Position numbers and translations under genes: made by a program. From positions 3,158,369-3,222,368 of the forward strand of contig JAWPML010000001.1 in the NCBI GenBank assembly GCA_033344915.1: a stretch of 64,000 nucleotides of DNA, written 5' to 3'. This DNA comes from Acidimicrobiales bacterium (lineage in GTDB: Bacteria > Actinomycetota > Acidimicrobiia > Acidimicrobiales > Aldehydirespiratoraceae). How positions within the stretch are numbered: the first letter of the stretch is position 1; every line of letters starts with the position of its first letter. Below, piece after piece: positions 1,964 to 10,053 of this stretch. The notes under the pieces are model-generated. The model saw only the letters and a program-made list of their open reading frames with translations. It had not been told where the DNA came from and searched no databases.

Positions 1964-2038
1964 CCCCTACCCCCTCGTTCTGGGTGAACGGAGGCGCGGA
2001 TTCCAGCGCTCTGTTCACCCAGAACGAGGGGGTAGGGG
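1964..2038. repeat. Long palindromic dispersed repeat, copy A
   Basis: The arms 1964-1993 and 2009-2038 form a 30-bp stem with one G.T wobble, and the loop can pair further. The inner 51 bases (1976-2026, starting CGTTCTGGGTGAACGG) recur at 25705-25755 with two differences, both of which keep base pairing. The element sits between divergent DUF2237 and GNAT genes and ends about 10 bases before the GNAT start. No transposase is nearby, so it looks like a REP-type intergenic element. Confidence 0.9.
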
Positions 2039-2048
2039 TGGGGGTGGG

Positions 2049-2540
2049 GTGATGGAGCTTCGCTTGGCGACGGTTGCCGATGCGGCGGCGATCCGGGACA
2101 TCTACAACCGCGAGGTCACCGAGACGACGAACACCTTCGATCTCGAACCCCGCACGCTCGAGCAGCAGCGGGACTGGCTCGCCGAACGGCTCGGCGCCCT
2201 CGGCGTGGTCGTGGCGGATATCGACGGTCGGGTGGCCGGCTTCGCGTCACTGTCCGAGTACCGCCCGCGGGCCGCGTACCGCACGACGGTCGAAAGCAGT
2301 GTCTACGTTGCCGAGTGGGCCCGCGGCGAAGGCGTCGGCCGGGCGATGATGGTCGAGCTGGTCGATGTCGCGACGCAACGCGGCTTCCACACGATCATCG
2401 CCAACATCGTCGGCGGCCACGAGGCGAGCATCGCCCTGCACCACGCGGCGGGGTTCGAGATCGTCGGCACCCAGCGCGAGGTCGGCCGGAAGTTCGGCAA
2501 GTGGCTCGACCTCACCGTCATGCAGCGCATGCTCCGGTGA
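2049..2540 (+). CDS. GNAT family N-acetyltransferase (phosphinothricin/methionine-sulfone acetyltransferase type)
   Basis: This 163-residue protein has the GNAT fold of the Pat/YncA group: an N-terminal LRLATVADAAAIRDIYN strand-helix, VAGFASLSEYRPR, then the acetyl-CoA loop ARGEGVGRAMM (about residues 95-105) and the ANIVGGHEASIALHHAAGF segment typical of phosphinothricin acetyltransferase-like enzymes. It should acetylate the amino group of a small amine or amino-acid analogue; the true substrate is unknown. The start is GTG at 2049 or ATG at 2052. A G-rich stretch and the end of the hairpin repeat lie just upstream, so the repeat may affect its expression. Confidence 0.85.
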   Translation: MMELRLATVADAAAIRDIYNREVTETTNTFDLEPRTLEQQRDWLAERLGALGVVVADIDGRVAGFASLSEYRPRAAYRTTVESSVYVAEWARGEGVGRAMMVELVDVATQRGFHTIIANIVGGHEASIALHHAAGFEIVGTQREVGRKFGKWLDLTVMQRMLR

Positions 2541-2546
2541 CGCGAA

Positions 2547-2572
2547 GAACCCGGTGCCGAAGCACCGGGTTC
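2547..2572 (-). terminator. Hairpin after tRNA-Tyr
   Basis: A perfect 11-bp GC-rich stem (2547-2557 with 2562-2572) closes a tetraloop that reads TTCG on the minus strand, an unusually stable UUCG loop. It lies between the 3' ends of the convergent GNAT gene and tRNA-Tyr, 15 bases past the tRNA, and could end both transcripts. There is no strong U tract. Confidence 0.7.
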
Positions 2573-2587
2573 TCACGAGTTGTCTTG

Positions 2588-2670
2588 TGGGCCGAGAAGG
2601 ATTTGAACCTTCGTAGGCGTAAGCCGACGGGTTTACAGCCCGTTCCCTTTGGCCGCTCGGGCACCGACCC
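2588..2670 (-). tRNA. tRNA-Tyr (GTA)
   Basis: The minus strand folds as a class II tRNA of 83 bases. The acceptor stem GGGTCGG pairs with TCGGCCC (discriminator A), the anticodon loop CTGTAAA gives anticodon GTA, the variable arm is long as expected for tRNA-Tyr, and the T arm is GAAGG TTCAAAT CCTTC. CCA is not encoded. A TATTCT -10 box lies at 2682-2687, upstream on the same strand. Confidence 0.96.
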
Positions 2671-2736
2671 AGGACCCTCAGAGAATACCGGGAGCGGACG
2701 CCGGTGCGACCTCGATTCGGTCGGGAACCGTCGCCG

Positions 2737-4122
2737 TCAGGACGTGGGCGACGCGGCGCGCGTCTCGACCCACGCGCCGTACCCGCCCAGGATGTCGGAG
2801 ACATCGGCGAACCCGGCTCGCCGCAGCACGCTCGCGCCGACCGACGACCGGTAGCCGCCGGCGCAGAACACGACGGTGGGCGTGTCGGGGTCGAGTTCGT
2901 CGAGCCGCTTGGGCAGCTCCCCGACCGGGATCCCGACTGCGCCGGGGATGGACCCGAGGGCGAACTCACCCGGATTGCGGATGTCGACCAGCTGGAGGCC
3001 GGCGACCTCGTCGGCGCGTACGTCGTACTCGGCCGCCGTCAGCCGCGAGGCGCGCTGGACACGGTCCGGGTGGGCGGCCATCACCGCTTGGGGATGGCGC
3101 AGATGACCGACGACCCGATCGAAACCGATACGGGCGAGCCGGTTCTTCGCCTCGAGCTCGAACCCGTCGTCGACGACGAGCACGATGTCGACGTCGGACG
3201 GCACGACCGAACCCGCGAACTCCGCGTAGCGGCCGTTGAGCCCGACATTGACCGATCCGGTCAGATGACCGTGGCCGAACTCCTCGGGGCCCCGACCGTC
3301 GAGGATCAGCGCACCGGCCGCGACCTTTGCGTCGAACTCGTCGAGGTCGAGCGGCGTCGGCGGCTCGGTCTCGTCGAGCAGCTCACGGTTCTTGCGGTTG
3401 AGCACGGCGTCGTAGACGAAGTAGTCGGGCGCCGGGGGCTGCCCCTCGGTGACGAGCTCGACGAAGGTCTCGCGGTCCGGGGCGAGCAGGGCGTAGTTGC
3501 TCTCCCGCTGGTCGCCGATCGTCGACCAGGTGTCGGTCGACAGGTTCTTGCCGCAGGCCGAACCGGCTCCGTGGGCGGGGTACACGCGGGTGGTGTCGGG
3601 CAACGGCATCAGCTTCTGGTGGAGGCTGTCGTAGAGCTGATCGGCCAGCTCGTCACGGGTGTAGCCGATCGACGCCAGCAGATCGGGGCGGCCGACGTCG
3701 CCGATGAACAACGTGTCGCCGGTGAGGACCGCATAGGGCTCCTCGCCGGGTTGCTCGCGCACGACGATGCTGATCGATTCCGGGGTGTGCCCCGGCGTGT
3801 GGAGGATCTCCAGCTCGACTTCGCCGAGAGAGATGCGCTCCCCGTCGGTGAGCTTGCGCGACGGGAACTCGGTCTCGGCCACCGACGAGAACGCGATCTC
3901 GGCGCCGGTGGCGGCCGCGAGCTCGAGATGGCCGGACAGGAAGTCGGCGTGGAAGTGGGTCTCGATCACGAGCTCGATGCGAAGGCCCGCGGCCTCGGCG
4001 TCGGCGACGTACTCGTCGATGTCACGGCGGGGGTCGACGACCACGGCACGGCCGCTCGTCTCGTCGCCGATCAGGTAGGACGCCTGCGACAGGCAGTCGA
4101 GGTAGTACTGGGTGAACTTCAT
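2737..4122 (-). CDS. MBL-fold persulfide dioxygenase-like protein with two rhodanese domains
   Basis: This 461-residue protein has an ETHE1-like metallo-beta-lactamase domain (residues 1-250) with THFHADF at 55-61 giving His56, His58 and Asp60. Two rhodanese domains follow (about 265-355 and 370-460). The first lacks the catalytic cysteine (VVDDG at the loop). The second keeps CAGGYRS with Cys420. This is the architecture of CstB/Blh-type enzymes, which convert glutathione- or small-thiol persulfide to sulfite or thiosulfate. The start ATG at 4122 has GAAGGAAGGA upstream and overlaps the stop of the preceding rhodanese gene by 4 bases, so translation is coupled. It is the last gene of the SulP operon. 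The exact substrate is inferred. Confidence 0.87.
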   Translation of the reverse strand: MKFTQYYLDCLSQASYLIGDETSGRAVVVDPRRDIDEYVADAEAAGLRIELVIETHFHADFLSGHLELAAATGAEIAFSSVAETEFPSRKLTDGERISLGEVELEILHTPGHTPESISIVVREQPGEEPYAVLTGDTLFIGDVGRPDLLASIGYTRDELADQLYDSLHQKLMPLPDTTRVYPAHGAGSACGKNLSTDTWSTIGDQRESNYALLAPDRETFVELVTEGQPPAPDYFVYDAVLNRKNRELLDETEPPTPLDLDEFDAKVAAGALILDGRGPEEFGHGHLTGSVNVGLNGRYAEFAGSVVPSDVDIVLVVDDGFELEAKNRLARIGFDRVVGHLRHPQAVMAAHPDRVQRASRLTAAEYDVRADEVAGLQLVDIRNPGEFALGSIPGAVGIPVGELPKRLDELDPDTPTVVFCAGGYRSSVGASVLRRAGFADVSDILGGYGAWVETRAASPTS

Positions 4123-4421
4123 GGGTTCGTTCCTTCCTTCCAGGCGAGCATGCCGCCCGCGAGATTGACGACGTCGGCGAATCCCGCGGCGGTGAGCGCC
4201 TCGCATGCCGCGGTGCTGCGTGCCCCGCTGCGGCAAAGGACGACGACGCGCTGTGCCGGGTTCAGCTCGCCGGCGCGAACCGGGAGGTCGCCGAGCGGGA
4301 TGTTGCGAGCGCCGGGGAGGGTGCCCGTCTCCTCGAGTTCGTGAGGCTCGCGGACGTCGATGAGTTGGGTGCTGTCGTCGACGACGGTCGGATAGTCGAC
4401 GACGGGATGGTCGCGATGCAT
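4119..4421 (-). CDS. Single-domain rhodanese sulfurtransferase
   Basis: This 100-residue protein is one rhodanese fold with the active-site loop CRSGARS (Cys63) and the typical LIDVREPHEL and GGMLAWK motifs. It should carry persulfide sulfur on the cysteine and pass it to a thiol acceptor, here plausibly the MBL-rhodanese encoded next. The stop overlaps the next start (ATGA). The start at 4421 (MHRDHPVVDY) lies one base past the stop of the upstream gene, so it is also likely coupled. A longer reading frame exists upstream, but that part is antisense-like sequence of the preceding gene. Confidence 0.85.
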   Translation of the reverse strand: MHRDHPVVDYPTVVDDSTQLIDVREPHELEETGTLPGARNIPLGDLPVRAGELNPAQRVVVLCRSGARSTAACEALTAAGFADVVNLAGGMLAWKEGTNP

Positions 4422-4422
4422 G

Positions 4423-5001
4423 TCAGGCCGCCTCCGCGTGCAGGTCACGCAGGACCGACTCGATGTCACAGCTCGTGCGGTTGTAGGGCAGTCGGCCGAG
4501 CATGTTGGCCATCGCGCACGTGTTGGAAACGGCCGAGTAGAGGAGGCCGCCACCGACGCCCGCGGCGAGCCACTTGGCCTTCGGCACGGCGATGCTCGTC
4601 AGCACCCCGGCGACCACGAGCGAGCCGGCGACGAGTCGGACCTGACGATCCATTGCCCACCGCTCGACGTCGCCCTGGGCGACCTCACCGTCCGCGGCCT
4701 GCCAGGCGGCGATACCGCCTTCGAGGATGTGGAGCCGCTCCTTGCCGGCGCCGCGGAGGGCACCGTGGGCCTGGCTGGCTCGGCCCCCCGATTGGCAGAC
4801 GAGGACGACCGGGTGGGCGACGTCGGCGAGATCGGCCACGTGCTCCCCCAGCGTGTCGAGCGGAACGTTGAACGAGCCCGGGATGTGGACCGTCTCGAAC
4901 TCGCCGCCGGTGCGCACATCGAGCACCCGGGTGGTCGGGTCGTCGACGCGGAGCCGCTGGAGCTCGGCGGTCGAGATGGTGTCGGTTGCGGGAATGGTCA
5001 T
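4423..5001 (-). CDS. Rhodanese-DUF2892 membrane protein (YgaP-like)
   Basis: Residues 10-105 form a rhodanese domain with the loop CQSGGRA (Cys69). Residues 117-185 form a DUF2892 membrane hairpin with two hydrophobic helices and the conserved LGRLPYNR segment. This is the YgaP layout: an inner-membrane sulfurtransferase with its catalytic domain in the cytoplasm. The start ATG at 5001 has GGAGAC upstream and overlaps the carbonic anhydrase stop by 4 bases. It places persulfide transfer at the membrane in the same operon as the anion transporter. Confidence 0.87.
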
Positions 5002-5564
5002 GTTGTCTCCAGTGAGGGATGGATCGGTGGAAGAGAAGGGTCGGTGACGTCGTCGAGACAGCCGGTCGCGAGGTCGTGGACCGCGCCGACGAGAGCGAGC
5101 CGACCGGCGCGGGTCGCCCGGCCGGTCGGACCGTCGTGGGCGGCGAGGGCACGGAGCGTCGCGGTGACGTTGTGGCGGACGATCGCCGGCTCCTCGGCGT
5201 GCGGATGCTGGTCGATGACCGCGCAGATCGGCGCGGTGACCGCGGCGAGCTCGCCGTCACAGTCCCCCGCGAACGCGGCGGCCACCGCGCCACAGTGCGT
5301 GTGGCCGAGCACGATCAGCAGTTCGACGCCGAGTTGCTCGACGGCGTAGTCGAGGCTGGCGAGTGCCCGCGGTCCGGCGGTGTTGCCCGCGACGCGAACG
5401 ACGAACAGGCTCCCGGCCGGCTGGTCGAAGACGACCGACGGCGGCACCCGGGCGTCGGAGCATGCCAGCACCGCGACCGAGGGTCGATGTTCGGGCACGC
5501 GGCCATCGGCCGGCGCGCCGGCTTGCTCGTGGGCGGCGAGGAGGTCGGACCAGAGCTCAGACAC
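4998..5564 (-). CDS. Beta-class carbonic anhydrase
   Basis: This 188-residue protein has the beta-carbonic anhydrase zinc site: CSDARVPP at 35-42 (Cys35, with the Asp37-Arg39 dyad) and HTHC at 88-91 (His88, Cys91). It interconverts CO2 and bicarbonate in the cytoplasm. I chose the GTG start at 5564 because GGAGG lies 7 bases upstream and the downstream residues fit the family; the longer frame is spurious. It overlaps the SulP stop by 8 bases and the next gene by 4. SulP with carbonic anhydrase suggests bicarbonate exchange or supply, but sulfate or sulfite counter-transport is equally possible. Confidence 0.92.
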
Positions 5565-7308
5565 GATGCACCTCCGACCCGCTGGTGGACGCCGGGCGTT
5601 CGTCGATGCCGTGGCGGCGTTGGTCGGACGGCGCCGTCCGGGCGGCGCGGATCGCCACGACCGCATCGTGGGTGGAGGTGTGGATCCGCTCGTCGAGCGC
5701 GTCCCACAAGCCGGCGCGGCGGAGCACGTCACGGACCGGGCCCTTGGCGTCGGCGAGGTGCAGCGTGACTCCGCGATCGTCGAGATCGGGCAGGAGTTCA
5801 TGGAGCATCTCCACGCCCGTGGCGTCGATGTCGTTGATGCCCGACGCGTCGAGCAGGAGGGCACGGGGCTCGGCGGTCAGTGCCGCGCCCCGCTCGGCGA
5901 GCAGTCGCTTCACGGCGGCGGCGTTGGCGAACGAGAGGGCGGCGTCGACCCGGACGATGTCGATTCCCGGGTCGGTGGCGACTTCGGGGAACCGCTCGAC
6001 GTTGCGGTAGCTCGTCGTCCCGTCGACATGGCCCAACACCGCGCTGTGGGGCATCGACATGCGGGCGAACACCACGAGCATCGAGGCGACGACGGCGACC
6101 CCGATGCCCAGCTCGATCCCCAGCACGAGGGTGGCGACGAATGCCACGGCCAGGCCGATCAGGTCGCTGCGCTTCACCCGCGCGATGTGGCGCATCTCGG
6201 CGACGTCGACGAGCCCGACCACTGCGGCGATGATGATCGCGCCGAGGGCGGCGTTGGGCAGCGAGGACAGCAGGGGCGTGAAGAACGCGATGGTGGCGAG
6301 GACGATGGCGGCGGTGACGACCGAGGCGAGCGGGGTCCGGGCGCCCGCCGAGTCGTTCACGGCCGTGCGGGAGAAGCCGCCGGTCACGGGGTAGCCGCCG
6401 AAGAGGCCGGCGGCCACGTTGGCGGCGCCGAGTCCGATCAGCTCCTGGTTGGCGTCGACGTCGTAGCGGTGCCGTCGGGCGTACACCTTGGCGACGGCGA
6501 TCGACTCCATGAAGCCGACGAGCGTGATGACCATCGCCGCCACGGCGAGGTCACCGATCAGCGAACCGCCCACGTCGGGCAGCCCGAAGGCGGGCAGCGA
6601 ATCGGGGATGTCGCCCACGACCGCGACGTCGTGGGACTCGAGGTCGAACGCCTCCACGGCGAGGATCGAGCCGACGACAACGGCGAGGGCGGCCGGCACC
6701 TGCGGGACGAAGCGCTTCATGGCGAAGAGGGCGACCAGGGCGACGAGCCCGAGCGCGAGCGTGGGTCCGTTGGTGTCGCCAACGCCCCGGCCGACCTCGC
6801 GCACCGTCTCGTAGAAGTGGTCCTGACGCTCGACCGAGATTCCGAGCAGGTGCTTCGCCTGCGAGAAGCCGATGATGATCGCCGCGGCCGCGGTGAAACC
6901 GACCAGGACCGAGTGGCTCAGCAGGTTGACGAGAAATCCGAGTCGCGCGATGCCGAGGACCAGATGGACCACGCCGACCATCAGCGCGAGCAGCGCCGCG
7001 GCGGCGAGATAGCCGGCGGTCCCCTCCTCGACGTGTGGCGCCAGCGCGGAGGCGGTGAGGAGCGAGACGATCGCGACCGGGCCGACCGCGAGCTGGCGGG
7101 AGGACCCGAAGAACGCGTAGACGAGCACCGGCACGGTGGCGGCGTAGAGACCGACCTCGGGCGGCAGGCCGGCGAGGAGGGCGTAGGCCATCGCCTGGGG
7201 CACCAGCATGGCGCCGATGGTGAGACCGGCGGTGACGTCGGGGCGCAGGTCGCTGCGGTCGTAGCTCGACCCCCAGTCGAGTATCGGGAACACACGGCGC
7301 GGCTGCAT
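5557..7308 (-). CDS. SulP family anion transporter with STAS domain
   Basis: This 583-residue protein has the SulP/SLC26 signature [20 protein letters not shown] near residues 36-56, about 12 hydrophobic segments, and a C-terminal STAS domain (about 440-555). The family moves sulfate, bicarbonate or other anions. I place the start at ATG 7308 rather than the TTG at 7344: a TTGACA -35 (7339-7344) and TACATT -10 (7316-7321) with 17-base spacing put transcription at the ATG, so the mRNA is probably leaderless. A perfect 30-bp palindrome overlaps this promoter. It is the first gene of a five-gene operon ending at 2737. Confidence 0.9.
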
Positions 7309-7344
7309 ATGTCCAAATGTACGTACATTTGGACATAATGTCAA
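7308..7344 (-). promoter_or_regulatory. SulP operon promoter overlapped by a 30-bp perfect palindrome
   Basis: Minus strand: -35 TTGACA (7344-7339), a 17-base spacer, -10 TACATT (7321-7316), then 7 bases to the ATG. The palindrome 7308-7337 is perfect over 30 bp (half-site TATGTCCAAATGTAC) and covers the spacer, the -10 and the start point. A dimeric repressor bound here would block RNA polymerase. The GntR-type regulator encoded immediately upstream is the obvious candidate, by inference only. Confidence 0.8.
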
Positions 7345-7371
7345 CCCCTGCCGCCCGATGACCGCGCCGGG

Positions 7372-8133
7372 TCAGGCCGCGGAGGGGCGCAGCTGGGCGA
7401 CCGCGCCGGTCGACCAGTCGGTGACGAAGCGGAACCGGTCGCCGCGGATCAGGGTGGTCCGCCATTCGATCGGCGTGCCGTCGCGGCTCCCGAGGCGCTC
7501 GAGGAAGAACACGGCGTCACCCGCCGCGAGCCCGAGCGGCCCCCGGTCCGTGGCCGTCGGGACGGTCGGCGTCAACCGCTCCCAGCCCTGATTCGGCACC
7601 GGCGCGCCGATGGCGGCCAGCTCCGCGTAGAGCGCCGTGTGGCTCCAGTCCACATGCAGAAGGGGTTCGGCGATCGAGGCGGGCAACCACGCCCGGTCGA
7701 GGGCGAGCGGATCGTCGCCGGCGAGCCGCAGCCGCTCGAGGAAGACCAAGGGGGCATCCTCCGCGAGGCCGAGATGCCCGGCGGCCGCCGCGTCGGTGAC
7801 GGCCTCGAGCGCGAGGACCTCGCTGGTCTGGCTGACGCCCGTCGACTCGACGGACTGGAACAGGCTGTAGAGGGTGCCGAGCGACTGCTCGAACTCCGAG
7901 CGGTTGACCACGGTCCCCTTGCCCCGCTCGCGCCGCAGCACCCCCATCTTGTTGAGGTGCCGGATCGCCTCGCGCACGGTGTGGCGGCTGACGCCGTAGA
8001 CCTCGGTCAGTTCGAGATCGGTGGGAAACGGGCCATCGTCGAACTCGCCGGTGTCGAGCCGGCGGCGGAGCTCGGCTTCGAGCTGGGCCCAGAGCGGCAG
8101 CGGGCTCTCGCGGTCGAGCGGTTGCGGCGTCAT
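7372..8133 (-). CDS. GntR family transcriptional regulator, HutC/UTRA type
   Basis: This 253-residue protein has an N-terminal winged helix-turn-helix (residues 10-75, containing LTEVYGVSRHTVREAIRHL) and a UTRA ligand-binding domain (about 95-240) ending ERLGSRDGTPIEWRTT. HutC-type GntR proteins repress neighbouring genes and let go when a small ligand binds the UTRA domain. It lies 63 bases upstream of the SulP operon on the same strand, and the operon promoter carries a 30-bp palindrome. A TGTCCGGACA palindrome in its own upstream region suggests autoregulation. The ligand is unknown. Confidence 0.88.
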   Translation of the reverse strand: MTPQPLDRESPLPLWAQLEAELRRRLDTGEFDDGPFPTDLELTEVYGVSRHTVREAIRHLNKMGVLRRERGKGTVVNRSEFEQSLGTLYSLFQSVESTGVSQTSEVLALEAVTDAAAAGHLGLAEDAPLVFLERLRLAGDDPLALDRAWLPASIAEPLLHVDWSHTALYAELAAIGAPVPNQGWERLTPTVPTATDRGPLGLAAGDAVFFLERLGSRDGTPIEWRTTLIRGDRFRFVTDWSTGAVAQLRPSAA

Positions 8134-8192
8134 GGCGGGCTCCCGAGTCGTGGGTGCCTTCCACAGTACATCCGAATCAACGCATCACCTGA

Positions 8193-8202
8193 TGTCCGGA
8201 CA
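8193..8202. promoter_or_regulatory. Short palindrome upstream of the GntR gene
   Basis: TGTCCGGACA is a perfect 10-bp palindrome 60 bases upstream of the GntR start. It shares the ATGTCC half-sequence with the 30-bp palindrome at the SulP promoter (both extend to ATGTCC). It may be a second, weaker operator for the same regulator; this is inference from shared sequence and position. Confidence 0.35.
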
Positions 8203-8244
8203 ATTCGCCCGAGGCCGGCCGCTCTCGTGGGAGCTCCCCGGGAC

Positions 8245-10053
8245 TCAGCCCGCCGCCCGGGGCTGTACCACGACCTCGGCCAGCGGCATCGGTGTGGGCT
8301 GGTCGCCGGGCTTCACGTCGCGCAGCTCGTGGACCCCGGCGACAACCGAGCAGTACTCGGTGATCTGGTCGACCTCGGCATCGCTCAGGTGGGCGAACCG
8401 GAGGTAGGCGACATGGTGGTTCCCGTCGCGTGACGAGCGACGCACGGCCGTCGGACAGTCGAACCGGATGACGGATCCGTCGACCTGCGGCAGCGCGAAC
8501 GCGATTCGGACGTTGTCGCCGACCCTCAGCGGCTTGGCGGACACGACGTCGATGCCGAACGGGGACACACCGATCACGCCCATGCGTCCGTCGCTGGCCA
8601 ACACCGTGAGCTCGTCGAACGTGCGGAAGTTCTGACGGAGCTGACGAAGCTTCAGCGCTGATCGGGCCTGGAGCGCCATCACCCACAGCCAGGTCCCGAG
8701 GCCGAGTGCCGCGAGCGTGGCGAAGTCGCCGTGCGAGGGACGCAGGATGCCCATTCCGAACACCAACAGCGTCACCGCGAGCGAGACCTGCAGGGTGCCG
8801 AGGAAGGCCTGCCGGGCGCGAGCACCCGGCGCGCGGTCCACGAGCTCGGAGCCGAGTGGCTTGTCGGGGAGAGCCCGGCGCGCCACGGCGAGATCGGTGG
8901 TCAGCAGGCGCAGGTCGTTGCTCATCCACGCCTGGAAGCCGATGGATTCCTGTGCGGCGCGGCGGTACAGCAACGACGACACCTGCCAGGCACCCCACAG
9001 CAGCACGAGCGGCGCGGGGTCGGCCACGAGCGGCAACGAGGACGTGTACAACACCGCGAAGAGCAGGCCGATCAGTACCAGCCGCTGGATGCTCCGTCCG
9101 ACGTGGAGGTCGGCGGCCCGCAGAACCCGGCGGCTGAGCCGCGTGGCGTGCTCGTTGCGCCGCGGCGCATCCCGGTCCACGAGCACGGTGAGCCGTTCGT
9201 GCAGATCGCGCGCCCAGCGGTGGAGGTGTCGGTCGTCGTTCCAGGGGGCGAGTCGCCGGGCGACCTGCACCGGCACGTCGACGATGCGCCAGCCGGCCGC
9301 CTGGAGGCGGACGCCGGTCGACATGGTCACGCCCTCGCGGCCGCGGCTCATGCCGCCGATCTCGCGGATGGCGCTTCGCCGCACGACGGCCATGCCCGGC
9401 CACCAGGGCAGGGCTCCCTCGTCGGAGAGCTTCGCGACCATGAGCTCGTCGCGGCGACGGTGCTCGCCGTAGCCGCCGTAGTCGATCGCCGTTGCCGCAT
9501 TCGTGTTCTGGACGCGGCTGACCACGACCCCGACCTCGGGATCGTCGAAGGCCACGGCGGAGACCTCGAGGATGTCGGGCATCACGACGAGATCCGCGGG
9601 CATCACGAGCGAGTAGAGCGACGTGCACTCCTCCATCGCCCGATCGATCAGCTCACCCAGATCGGCGCCGAACCCGCCGACGATGCGGGTGAGACCGAGG
9701 CGGGTGGCGAGGGCGGCGACGTCGGGACGATCGTCACGGTCGACGATGCGCAGATTGGTGTAGCCCTGGATGAGTCGGGCGGAGAGCACCGCGGCGCGCA
9801 CCTCGCTCGCGGGTTCGTCGGTGACGATCACGATCACGTCGGCGTCCGGCGCCATCGACTTCTCGGGCGAGCGGTCGTCGGGGCGGGGCTCGCCGAGCAG
9901 CGACATCTCCATGTGGAGACGGACGAAACCGAACGCCTCCGCCGCCAGCAGCAGGAAGAACATGACGGGATTCGCGCCATCGGACGTGAACAGGAGCCGC
10001 CACGCGAGATAGACGACCCCGGTCACGATCGCGGAGATCCGAAGGAGAGTCAT
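8245..10053 (-). CDS. Glycosyltransferase family 2-like membrane protein with C-terminal PilZ-like domain, catalytic motifs degenerate
   Basis: The 602-residue protein has two N-terminal TM helices (about 3-20, 28-47), a GT2/cellulose-synthase-like domain (70-290), more TM helices (about 310-350, 420-465) and a C-terminal PilZ-like region (470-580). The overall order is that of BcsA. The catalytic signatures are altered: the DxD position reads PAD (152-154), the TED position reads VTMSTG (242-247), and QxxRW reads HLHRW (276-280). In PilZ, RxxxR is present (RQNFR 473-477), but D/NxSxxG reads GVSPFG (495-500). It may be a pseudoenzyme or a divergent polysaccharide synthase under c-di-GMP control. 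The ATG at 10053 follows GGAAG. It is divergent from yajQ, whose product is also reported to bind nucleotides. Confidence 0.72.
   Translation of the reverse strand: MTLLRISAIVTGVVYLAWRLLFTSDGANPVMFFLLLAAEAFGFVRLHMEMSLLGEPRPDDRSPEKSMAPDADVIVIVTDEPASEVRAAVLSARLIQGYTNLRIVDRDDRPDVAALATRLGLTRIVGGFGADLGELIDRAMEECTSLYSLVMPADLVVMPDILEVSAVAFDDPEVGVVVSRVQNTNAATAIDYGGYGEHRRRDELMVAKLSDEGALPWWPGMAVVRRSAIREIGGMSRGREGVTMSTGVRLQAAGWRIVDVPVQVARRLAPWNDDRHLHRWARDLHERLTVLVDRDAPRRNEHATRLSRRVLRAADLHVGRSIQRLVLIGLLFAVLYTSSLPLVADPAPLVLLWGAWQVSSLLYRRAAQESIGFQAWMSNDLRLLTTDLAVARRALPDKPLGSELVDRAPGARARQAFLGTLQVSLAVTLLVFGMGILRPSHGDFATLAALGLGTWLWVMALQARSALKLRQLRQNFRTFDELTVLASDGRMGVIGVSPFGIDVVSAKPLRVGDNVRIAFALPQVDGSVIRFDCPTAVRRSSRDGNHHVAYLRFAHLSDAEVDQITEYCSVVAGVHELRDVKPGDQPTPMPLAEVVVQPRAAG

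Follow-up and report, generated by a model that had tools for sequence, protein, structure and literature searches.

Positions 2737-8133 of a 64,000-nucleotide (nt) stretch, hereafter the window (positions 3,158,369-3,222,368 of contig JAWPML010000001.1, GCA_033344915.1, from an Acidimicrobiales bacterium), carry six minus-strand genes that, read from 8133 to 2737, encode a GntR/UTRA regulator, a SulP transporter, a beta-carbonic anhydrase (CA), a YgaP-like rhodanese, a single rhodanese, and a protein in which a metallo-beta-lactamase (MBL) domain is followed by two rhodanese domains. Comparison with related loci gives good support for a core that oxidises or detoxifies sulfane sulfur. The reading that we consider probable is a GntR-controlled oxidation of sulfane sulfur to sulfite and then to thiosulfate or sulfate, with SulP as the exporter of the resulting oxyanion and CA as an optional component. 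The operon itself, the residues of its proteins, shared operators, gene linkage and a single exchange of SulP for TauE carry this reading; the reactions, the repression, the transport, the inducer and the role of CA are what we infer from them.

The operon and its enzymes

The genes from SulP to the last gene form a real operon, which its anatomy predicts to be one transcription unit. From SulP onward, successive gene pairs overlap by 8 bases, overlap by 4, lie 1 base apart and overlap by 4. SulP starts at the ATG at 7308 (the mechanical open reading frame begins upstream, at the TTG at 7344), and the promoter before it (Table 1) is the sole sigma-70-like promoter found by a scan of positions 2000-8400, where shuffled sequences give an expectation of 0.3. 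Because this promoter lies so close to the ATG, the SulP mRNA is probably leaderless. A first-pass annotation of this DNA had described a leftward five-gene unit with 4- to 8-base overlaps or a 1-base gap, a GntR/UTRA gene just upstream, and a CstB/ETHE1-type enzyme whose first rhodanese is inactive and second active; the gene coordinates, the Pfam domains of the regulator and the data on the enzyme given below bear out this description, the enzyme being of the CstB type.

The last gene of the operon is supported as encoding a CstB-type persulfide dioxygenase-sulfurtransferase. Its product matches over its full length two solved structures, 3tp9 (E 8.5e-88) and 3r2u (E 2.1e-60), the second of which we take to be CstB of Staphylococcus aureus (the structure table names it only as a metallo-beta-lactamase family protein), and has the CstB layout throughout: MBL, inactive rhodanese, active rhodanese. 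Among 54 sequences with at least 34% identity and 90% coverage, the window's included, H56, H58, D60, H112, D136, H184, C190 and C420 are kept in 53-54, with H56, H112 and C190 in all 54 and D136 in 53. These include what we take to be the ETHE1-type iron ligands (His, His, Asp) and the nearby cysteine that mark this class of enzyme. The loop of the first rhodanese has no cysteine in the window's protein (V317-D318-D319), and in the second C420 and R425 are invariant in the same 54 sequences.

The other two rhodaneses both have a CX4R loop: C63 and R68 of the single-domain protein occur in 9/9 sequences, and C69, R74, C162 and C178 of the YgaP-like protein in 20/20. In CA, C35, D37, R39, H88 and C91 are kept in all nine sequences of at least 80% coverage, a count that leaves out shorter matches such as those in loci L037 and L066; C35, H88 and C91 are presumably the metal ligands and D37-R39 the associated pair.

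The regulator has the winged helix-turn-helix and UTRA domains of the GntR/HutC type, and its AlphaFold model (mean predicted local distance difference test score, pLDDT, 85.4) has YvoA, DasR and PhnF as its nearest solved folds. Cysteine-based persulfide sensors (CstR, BigR/SqrR, FisR) have a conserved reactive cysteine, which is absent here; thiol sensing was set aside for the window's protein, as it contains no cysteine at all. Of 42 sequences compared, 13 are free of cysteine, and the commonest cysteine column, at the position of Gly176 in the window, is occupied by cysteine in 16 of 42, all of them at most 59% identical to the window's protein; in such distant relatives thiol sensing is still conceivable. 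PhnF-like oxyanion sensing was left as a guess: PhnF is the best NCBIfam model, although below its cut-off (104.2 bits, cut-off 156.8), and among the folds it is equalled or outranked by YvoA and DasR, whose structures were solved with sugar phosphates. The genome also encodes a second GntR, 58-59% identical to the window's (G000:C1:2162367-2163113; L178:5368-6120); the surrounding 11 kb contain neither an exact operator site nor any of the sulfur genes looked for.

A shared operator and a predicted regulon

The -10 element of the SulP promoter falls inside a perfect 30-bp palindrome, in which two strand copies of TGTACGTACATT span 7316-7329. The 26-bp core of this palindrome has no second copy in the genome at up to 3 mismatches. 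As a marker of a regulon it matched only the window's own site, and it was replaced by the 12-base core TGTMCGKACAWT. In the 4.48-Mb genome (a single contig of 4,481,363 bases) TGTMCGKACAWT has five distinct sites, each within about 60 bp of a gene start; the same pattern read backwards gives one match, and a pattern that accepts either C or T as its ninth base (TGTMCGKAYAWT) adds no site. The genes behind the sites are listed in Table 1 and include, besides SulP and the regulator, a molybdoenzyme, a second CstB and a peroxiredoxin-like gene. Because all five units carry TGTMCGKACAWT just upstream, they are predicted to belong to one regulon, and from the site before its own gene we infer that GntR is autoregulated.

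The operator core is also found well beyond the window. Its form TGTMCGKAYA precedes SulP in 26 of 32 loci, compared with 41 of 6660 random 160-base windows drawn from the fetched loci; the 32 have at least 55% SulP identity and enough upstream sequence, include the window, and are not all independent (some may be same-species pairs). In 51 genomes of the family, 69 strand matches represent 53 distinct core sites in 27 genomes, and the reversed control gives 13 strand matches. Of these sites, 39 precede CstB, SulP, NrfD/MoOR, SQR-like, peroxiredoxin-like or GntR genes, as assigned by reading, two of them on SQR-like matches of only 27-28% identity. Excluding those two, linked sites occur in 18 of the 22 genomes that have a GntR relative and in 2 of the 29 that do not, counts that are not independent since the genomes are related. 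Within SulP clusters the core precedes NrfD in 0/11 and SQR-like genes in 0/11 cases, and an unlinked SQR-like gene in L164 carries it. The other 14 sites lie elsewhere, and five of them are accounted for by five genomes of one genus in which TGTCCGGACAAT lies 37 nt before the same gene (Table 1), which may be a further member of the regulon; some of the 14 may therefore be real targets.

The molybdoenzyme of the regulon is SoeABC-like. SoeABC sulfite dehydrogenases consist of a molybdoenzyme, an iron-sulfur (FeS) part and an NrfD-type anchor. The same parts are found here: a molybdenum subunit with no Tat motif in the 7 starts inspected by eye, an FeS part and an NrfD-type anchor, with the Pfam domains seen in L069, a relative in which the genes show 67% and 79% identity. 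Unlike SoeABC, FeS and NrfD are fused in one protein, and the genes are unlinked to the SulP operon. The nearest solved relative is 2vpw, which is named thiosulfate reductase. Because there is no Tat motif and the FeS part is fused to NrfD in L069, cytoplasmic sulfite oxidation of the SoeABC type would be the natural reading. Since this enzyme carries the same operator, thiosulfate is not the sole likely product of the pathway, and sulfate is suggested as well.

Coordinates of the operon and of the putative operator sites are collected in Table 1. A tRNA-Tyr gene (gta; window 2587-2670) lies just past the operon end on the same strand.

Table 1. Genes, promoter and predicted operator sites (window positions, unless a genome or contig is named)
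Feature	Position	Strand	Details
GntR/HutC-type repressor with UTRA domain	7372..8133	-	253 aa, no cysteine; Pfam GntR and UTRA
SulP/SLC26 anion transporter with STAS domain	5557..7308	-	583 aa; TIGR00815 511 bits, cut-off 380
Beta-carbonic anhydrase	4998..5564	-	188 aa, GTG start; Pfam Pro_CA E 1.4e-29
YgaP-like rhodanese, C-terminal transmembrane domain	4423..5001	-	192 aa, active Cys69; Pfam Rhodanese and YgaP-like_TM
Single-domain rhodanese	4119..4421	-	100 aa, active Cys63; Pfam Rhodanese E 1.2e-18
CstB-type: persulfide dioxygenase (MBL), pseudo-rhodanese, active rhodanese	2737..4122	-	461 aa; Pfam Lactamase_B and two Rhodanese stretches
SulP operon promoter	7316..7344	-	TTGACA (7344-7339), 17 nt, TACATT (7321-7316); 7 nt before ATG
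Perfect 30-bp palindrome, predicted operator	7308..7337	.	26-bp core 7310-7335
Site before SulP	7316-7329		core TGTMCGKACAWT
Second operator copy TGTCCGGACAAT	8193..8204 (G000:C1:3166561-3166572)	+	60 bp upstream of GntR start
Site before FeS-NrfD fusion, then molybdopterin oxidoreductase	C1:1420152
Site before second CstB, then two YeeE/YedE-like genes	C1:2854074		second CstB 65% identical; YeeE/YedE-like genes named by eye
Site before peroxiredoxin-like gene	C1:1361235		gene named by eye
Sites in L161, L187, L186, L159, L175	G036:C58, G037:C12, G038:C87, G040:C55, G044:C30		TGTCCGGACAAT before the recurrent gene

The SulP transporter

SulP genes are mostly annotated as sulfate permeases, with no known direction of transport. 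The window's protein is a member of the SulP/SLC26 family, with Sulfate_transp and STAS domains above the curated cut-offs, and its nearest named relatives come from metagenome-assembled genomes labelled Acidimicrobiales, Actinomycetes, Miltoncostaea, Ilumatobacter and Ilumatobacteraceae. A BicA-type bicarbonate transporter was rejected as its identity (NCBIfam BicA 152 bits, cut-off 880). The best solved match is Sultr4;1 (7lhv; 384.7 bits), with whose Q112, Y116, E347, S392 and R393 the residues Q38, Y42, E268, S313 and R314 align. Among 101 SulP sequences, the window's included, the equivalents of Q112, Y116, S392, R393 and E347 are kept in 100, 100, 91, 101 and 97, respectively. The roles of Arg393, Ser392, Gln112, Tyr116 and Glu347 in Sultr4;1 are described in PMC8298490. 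The window's SulP has both the sulfate-binding residues and the proton-coupling glutamate, although this set is no proof of its substrate.

Conservation of the gene set

The neighbours of SulP were counted within 9 kb in 24 close loci (SulP identity at least 57%, window included), with layouts that rest on tblastn. CstB is found in 22 of these, RhoTM in 16, CA in 14, GntR in 14, RhoS in 8, NrfD, MoOR and CstR in 7 each, and an SQR-like gene in 6. The two loci that lack CstB are L034, which ends at a contig end, and L040, which has a truncated SulP match; no CA lies within 9 kb in 10 loci, some of which reach contig ends. The complete five-gene set in the window's order is present in only three (the window, L032 and L033), again with L034 cut by its contig end. 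The exact set is local, the SulP-CstB core is wider, and CA, RhoTM and RhoS come and go. The first-pass annotation had proposed that a conserved order with the same palindrome would support the link between these genes. Borne out is the SulP-CstB link, which is kept in gene order and in the operator core (26/32), with CstB near SulP in 22/24; the exact five-gene order was seen in only 3/24, and the full 26-bp palindrome was not found in the 50 other family genomes, where only the core is shared. More distant loci (L076-L080; SulP identity 45-49%), left out of the 24, have no full CstB except one of 35% identity in L080, and three of them keep GntR or NrfD/MoOR.

A wider scan of 84,980 species, one genome per species, gave at least 584 SulP relatives, of which the best 80 were chosen by SulP and not by its neighbours; 59 of these have 3 kb on both sides, 21 being dropped for contig ends. 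Within 3 kb of SulP, 34 of the 59 have a dioxygenase-like gene (a match to the MBL part of CstB, as low as 27% identity), 24 a rhodanese gene and 41 one or the other, and CA, SQR-like and YeeE/YedE-like genes are found in 9, 5 and 11. By our assignment of phylum names, the 41 include Actinomycetota, Bacteroidota, Bacillota, Rhodothermota, Deinococcota, Gemmatimonadota, Myxococcota, Pseudomonadota, Chloroflexota and Cyanobacteria, among others. When the distance is set at 1.5 kb, a dioxygenase-like or rhodanese gene is present in 45 of 66 loci from the best 80. For comparison, 20 loci of a different SulP clade within the window's family (55-72% like SulP2; left flank shorter in L018) have not one of the genes sought at that distance; the two sets differ in species spread.

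Several of these loci have further features of their own. A second SulP, of the SulP2 clade, lies in or beside the same cluster in L033, L036, L037 and L040, and in the first three of these a DsbB-like gene with a thioredoxin-rhodanese fusion is divergent to GntR. In L204, L211 and L225, from haloalkaliphilic or related Bacillota, a SulP-CA pair lies inside a cluster of CstR, rhodanese, dioxygenase-like and DUF302 genes. In the Bacteroidota loci L210, L214, L228 and L238, CstB, NrfD, MoOR and SulP all occur together, and two of these loci also have an SQR-like gene, which suggests a sulfide-to-sulfate island outside Actinomycetota.

CstR and TauE in related clusters

A CsoR-family gene is divergent from SulP in L033, L036, L037 and L038, and the palindrome ATACCCC..GGGGTAT, which we take to be a CstR-type operator, precedes SulP in 10 of the 32 loci, compared with 16 of the 6660 windows. 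Judging by these divergent genes and this operator, a persulfide sensor seems to control SulP too in some members of the group.

TauE was found in three of the 153 loci searched. In L191 it is followed immediately by RhoTM, RhoS and CstB and preceded by a small lipoprotein-like gene (named by eye) and the operator core TGTACGTACA, with DsbB and GntR genes beside the cluster; no SulP match with an E value of 1e-120 or better was found in the genome of this locus (G077). This is a strong hint that TauE takes the place of SulP behind the same operator core, as one clear swap and not a pattern. L207 has TauE next to a partial CstB match, with SulP several kb away, and L209 has it flanked by a partial CstB match on one side and SulP on the other. 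A survey of plasmids with a CstB-type protein matched 180 records. Three were opened, H1 and H3 from Mycolicibacterium (72% and 69%) and H10 from Rhodococcus opacus (55%); all three have a CsoR-type (metal-sensitive) regulator gene nearby, H3 and H10 have TauE, and SulP is not annotated in these stretches, whose gene table is incomplete. In the plasmids of Mycolicibacterium chubuense and Rhodococcus opacus the CstB-like gene is near CsoR-type regulator, TauE and DUF302 genes.

Relation to known circuits

The operon is a variant of cst/bigR-type circuits already described. Among the matches listed in the open-licence literature searched, none describes this operon or a GntR regulon of this kind. 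TauE belongs to the cst operon of S. aureus, and BigR is a member of the ArsR family. The cst operon of S. aureus, with CstR, CstA, CstB and SQR (PMC8148161), resembles the window in being a repressor-controlled unit with a CstB-type dioxygenase-rhodanese that contains a pseudo-rhodanese; in contrast, the window has no CstR, TauE or SQR beside the operon, and has a cysteine-free GntR/UTRA protein, SulP and CA. The only PF02583 match of the genome, at C1:4244636, is beside metal-ATPase-like and MerR-like genes (named by eye), and no TauE match was found in the 64-kb window.

In Streptomyces coelicolor, ScCsoR, which senses by Cys37, a persulfide dioxygenase (PDO), a rhodanese and a sulfite transporter remove sulfane sulfur without SQR (PMC7533328). 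This circuit has four genes and is, like the window's operon, an actinobacterial set of regulator, dioxygenase, rhodanese and exporter without SQR. The window differs in that its GntR has no cysteine, SulP takes the place of the sulfite transporter, and the same operator also precedes a molybdoenzyme. The bigR operon of Xylella and Agrobacterium likewise combines, under a repressor, a dioxygenase and sulfur transferase with an exporter, namely Blh and a TauE-related transporter, and BigR acts through Cys42-Cys108 (PMC5823870); Blh, however, is a DUF442-ETHE1 protein, whose NCBIfam model scores 59.5 bits here (cut-off 625). In these last two reports the repressors that govern persulfide oxidation use cysteine, while the window's GntR has none. 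A regulator-dioxygenase-rhodanese-sulfite transporter circuit is also described for B. licheniformis, where YrkJ is a hypothetical TauE (PMC9918477). In the mto clusters of Methylophaga thiooxydans, sulP is clustered with pdo and sqrB, genes for a persulfide dioxygenase and SQR, the permease being higher as protein on dimethylsulfide and as transcript on methanol (PMC6548844); the available text mentions no CA, GntR, CstB fusion or operator there.

Proposed pathway and alternatives

In the pathway that we propose, GntR would bind TGTMCGKACA over the -10 element and repress the operon. Because it has no cysteine, a small molecule that binds to the UTRA domain is the probable inducer; with this ligand present, the proteins of the operon would be made together with the molybdoenzyme, the second CstB and the peroxiredoxin-like protein. 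The CstB-type enzyme would oxidise to sulfite the persulfide sulfur that arises from sulfide or that the rhodaneses draw from thiosulfate or thiols. The rhodanese domain may then join this sulfite to sulfane sulfur to give thiosulfate or, alternatively, the SoeABC-like molybdoenzyme, which is unlinked but belongs to the same predicted regulon, may oxidise it to sulfate. SulP would move the resulting oxyanion out, which is the role of TauE in the cst, bigR and yrkD clusters. CA may be an optional helper: both oxidations release acid, which it could buffer, and it could also provide bicarbonate as a counter-ion. The first-pass annotation had suggested that the unit may detoxify sulfide by making and exporting sulfite or thiosulfate in exchange for bicarbonate from CA; comparison supports the sulfur chemistry but not the exchange for bicarbonate, and export by SulP is a hypothesis. 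A fuller version, which we put forward only tentatively, would have the cysteine-free GntR/UTRA protein sense a sulfur oxyanion (sulfite, thiosulfate or sulfate), so that a product induces the persulfide-to-sulfate pathway, with SulP and CA as an electroneutral oxyanion/bicarbonate exchanger in the role of TauE, and the same throughout the clade in many phyla.

Several observations weigh against the proposed pathway. With regard to the operator, the core is missing before six of the 32 SulP genes (near forms can be seen by eye in L062 and L067, the CstR-type operator is present in L068 and L071, and L073 and L074 have neither); it precedes GntR in only 7 of 21 loci and CstB in 12 of 30; 14 of the 53 family sites are not beside the sought genes; two genomes with linked sites showed no GntR; and the CstR-type operator was not found before the window's SulP. 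With regard to transport, the residues of SulP show an apparent anion site and possible proton coupling, from which neither substrate nor direction can be read; Sultr4;1 itself was assayed as a proton/sulfate symporter (PMC8298490); L209 indicates that TauE and SulP can co-occur; and 18 of the 59 loci of the wider scan have no dioxygenase-like or rhodanese gene within 3 kb. In addition, for SQR of the relatives' kind the whole genome gives only a weak match (117 residues, E 6.1e-6; the search covered that SQR kind only).

This last result would suit a regulon for the use of thiosulfate, serving feeding and not detoxification. Thiosulfate would be imported by the YeeE/YedE-like pair or by SulP and split by the rhodaneses, CstB and the molybdoenzyme would oxidise the pieces, and the UTRA domain would sense thiosulfate or sulfite. 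YeeE/YedE proteins have a role with thiosulfate, and the pair named by eye follows the second CstB under the same operator; the operon also has three rhodanese-bearing proteins. We nevertheless regard such a regulon as unlikely, since the SQR-like gene in the cluster of relatives (6/24 loci; best model type III SQR, 238 bits, under the cut-off of 525) and the CstR-type regulator and operator before SulP in relatives fit sulfide or persulfide better.

SulP-CA gene pairs and the transporter BicA also raise the question of inorganic carbon, with SulP and CA working as a pair in bicarbonate uptake and having no more than an operon in common with the rhodanese genes. The presence of CA near SulP in 14 of the 24 loci is in line with this, as are L221, L253 and L270, which have CA and no dioxygenase-like or rhodanese gene within 3 kb. 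It is quite improbable given that CstB is the commoner neighbour (22 loci, CA only 14), that the BicA model scores far below its cut-off, that TauE replaces SulP in L191, and that the CstR-type operator precedes SulP in relatives. Very improbable indeed is a sulfate importer for assimilation placed in a sulfur-recycling operon, which the SulP family name and closeness to the Sultr4;1 proton/sulfate symporter would suggest, and against which stand the operator common to dioxygenase and molybdoenzyme and the TauE swap.

Implications

Export of sulfur oxyanions after the oxidation of reactive sulfur thus stands as our preferred account. This actinobacterial lineage appears to destroy reactive sulfur by means of an oxidising enzyme, rhodaneses and an anion transporter under one repressor. 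The occurrence of a SulP clade beside dioxygenase-like and rhodanese genes across phyla, together with the one TauE swap, turns export by SulP into a concrete hypothesis, and a vaguely annotated class of transporters gains a testable job. In addition, the 12-base site names the members of the regulon, so that induction, binding and transport can be tested together.

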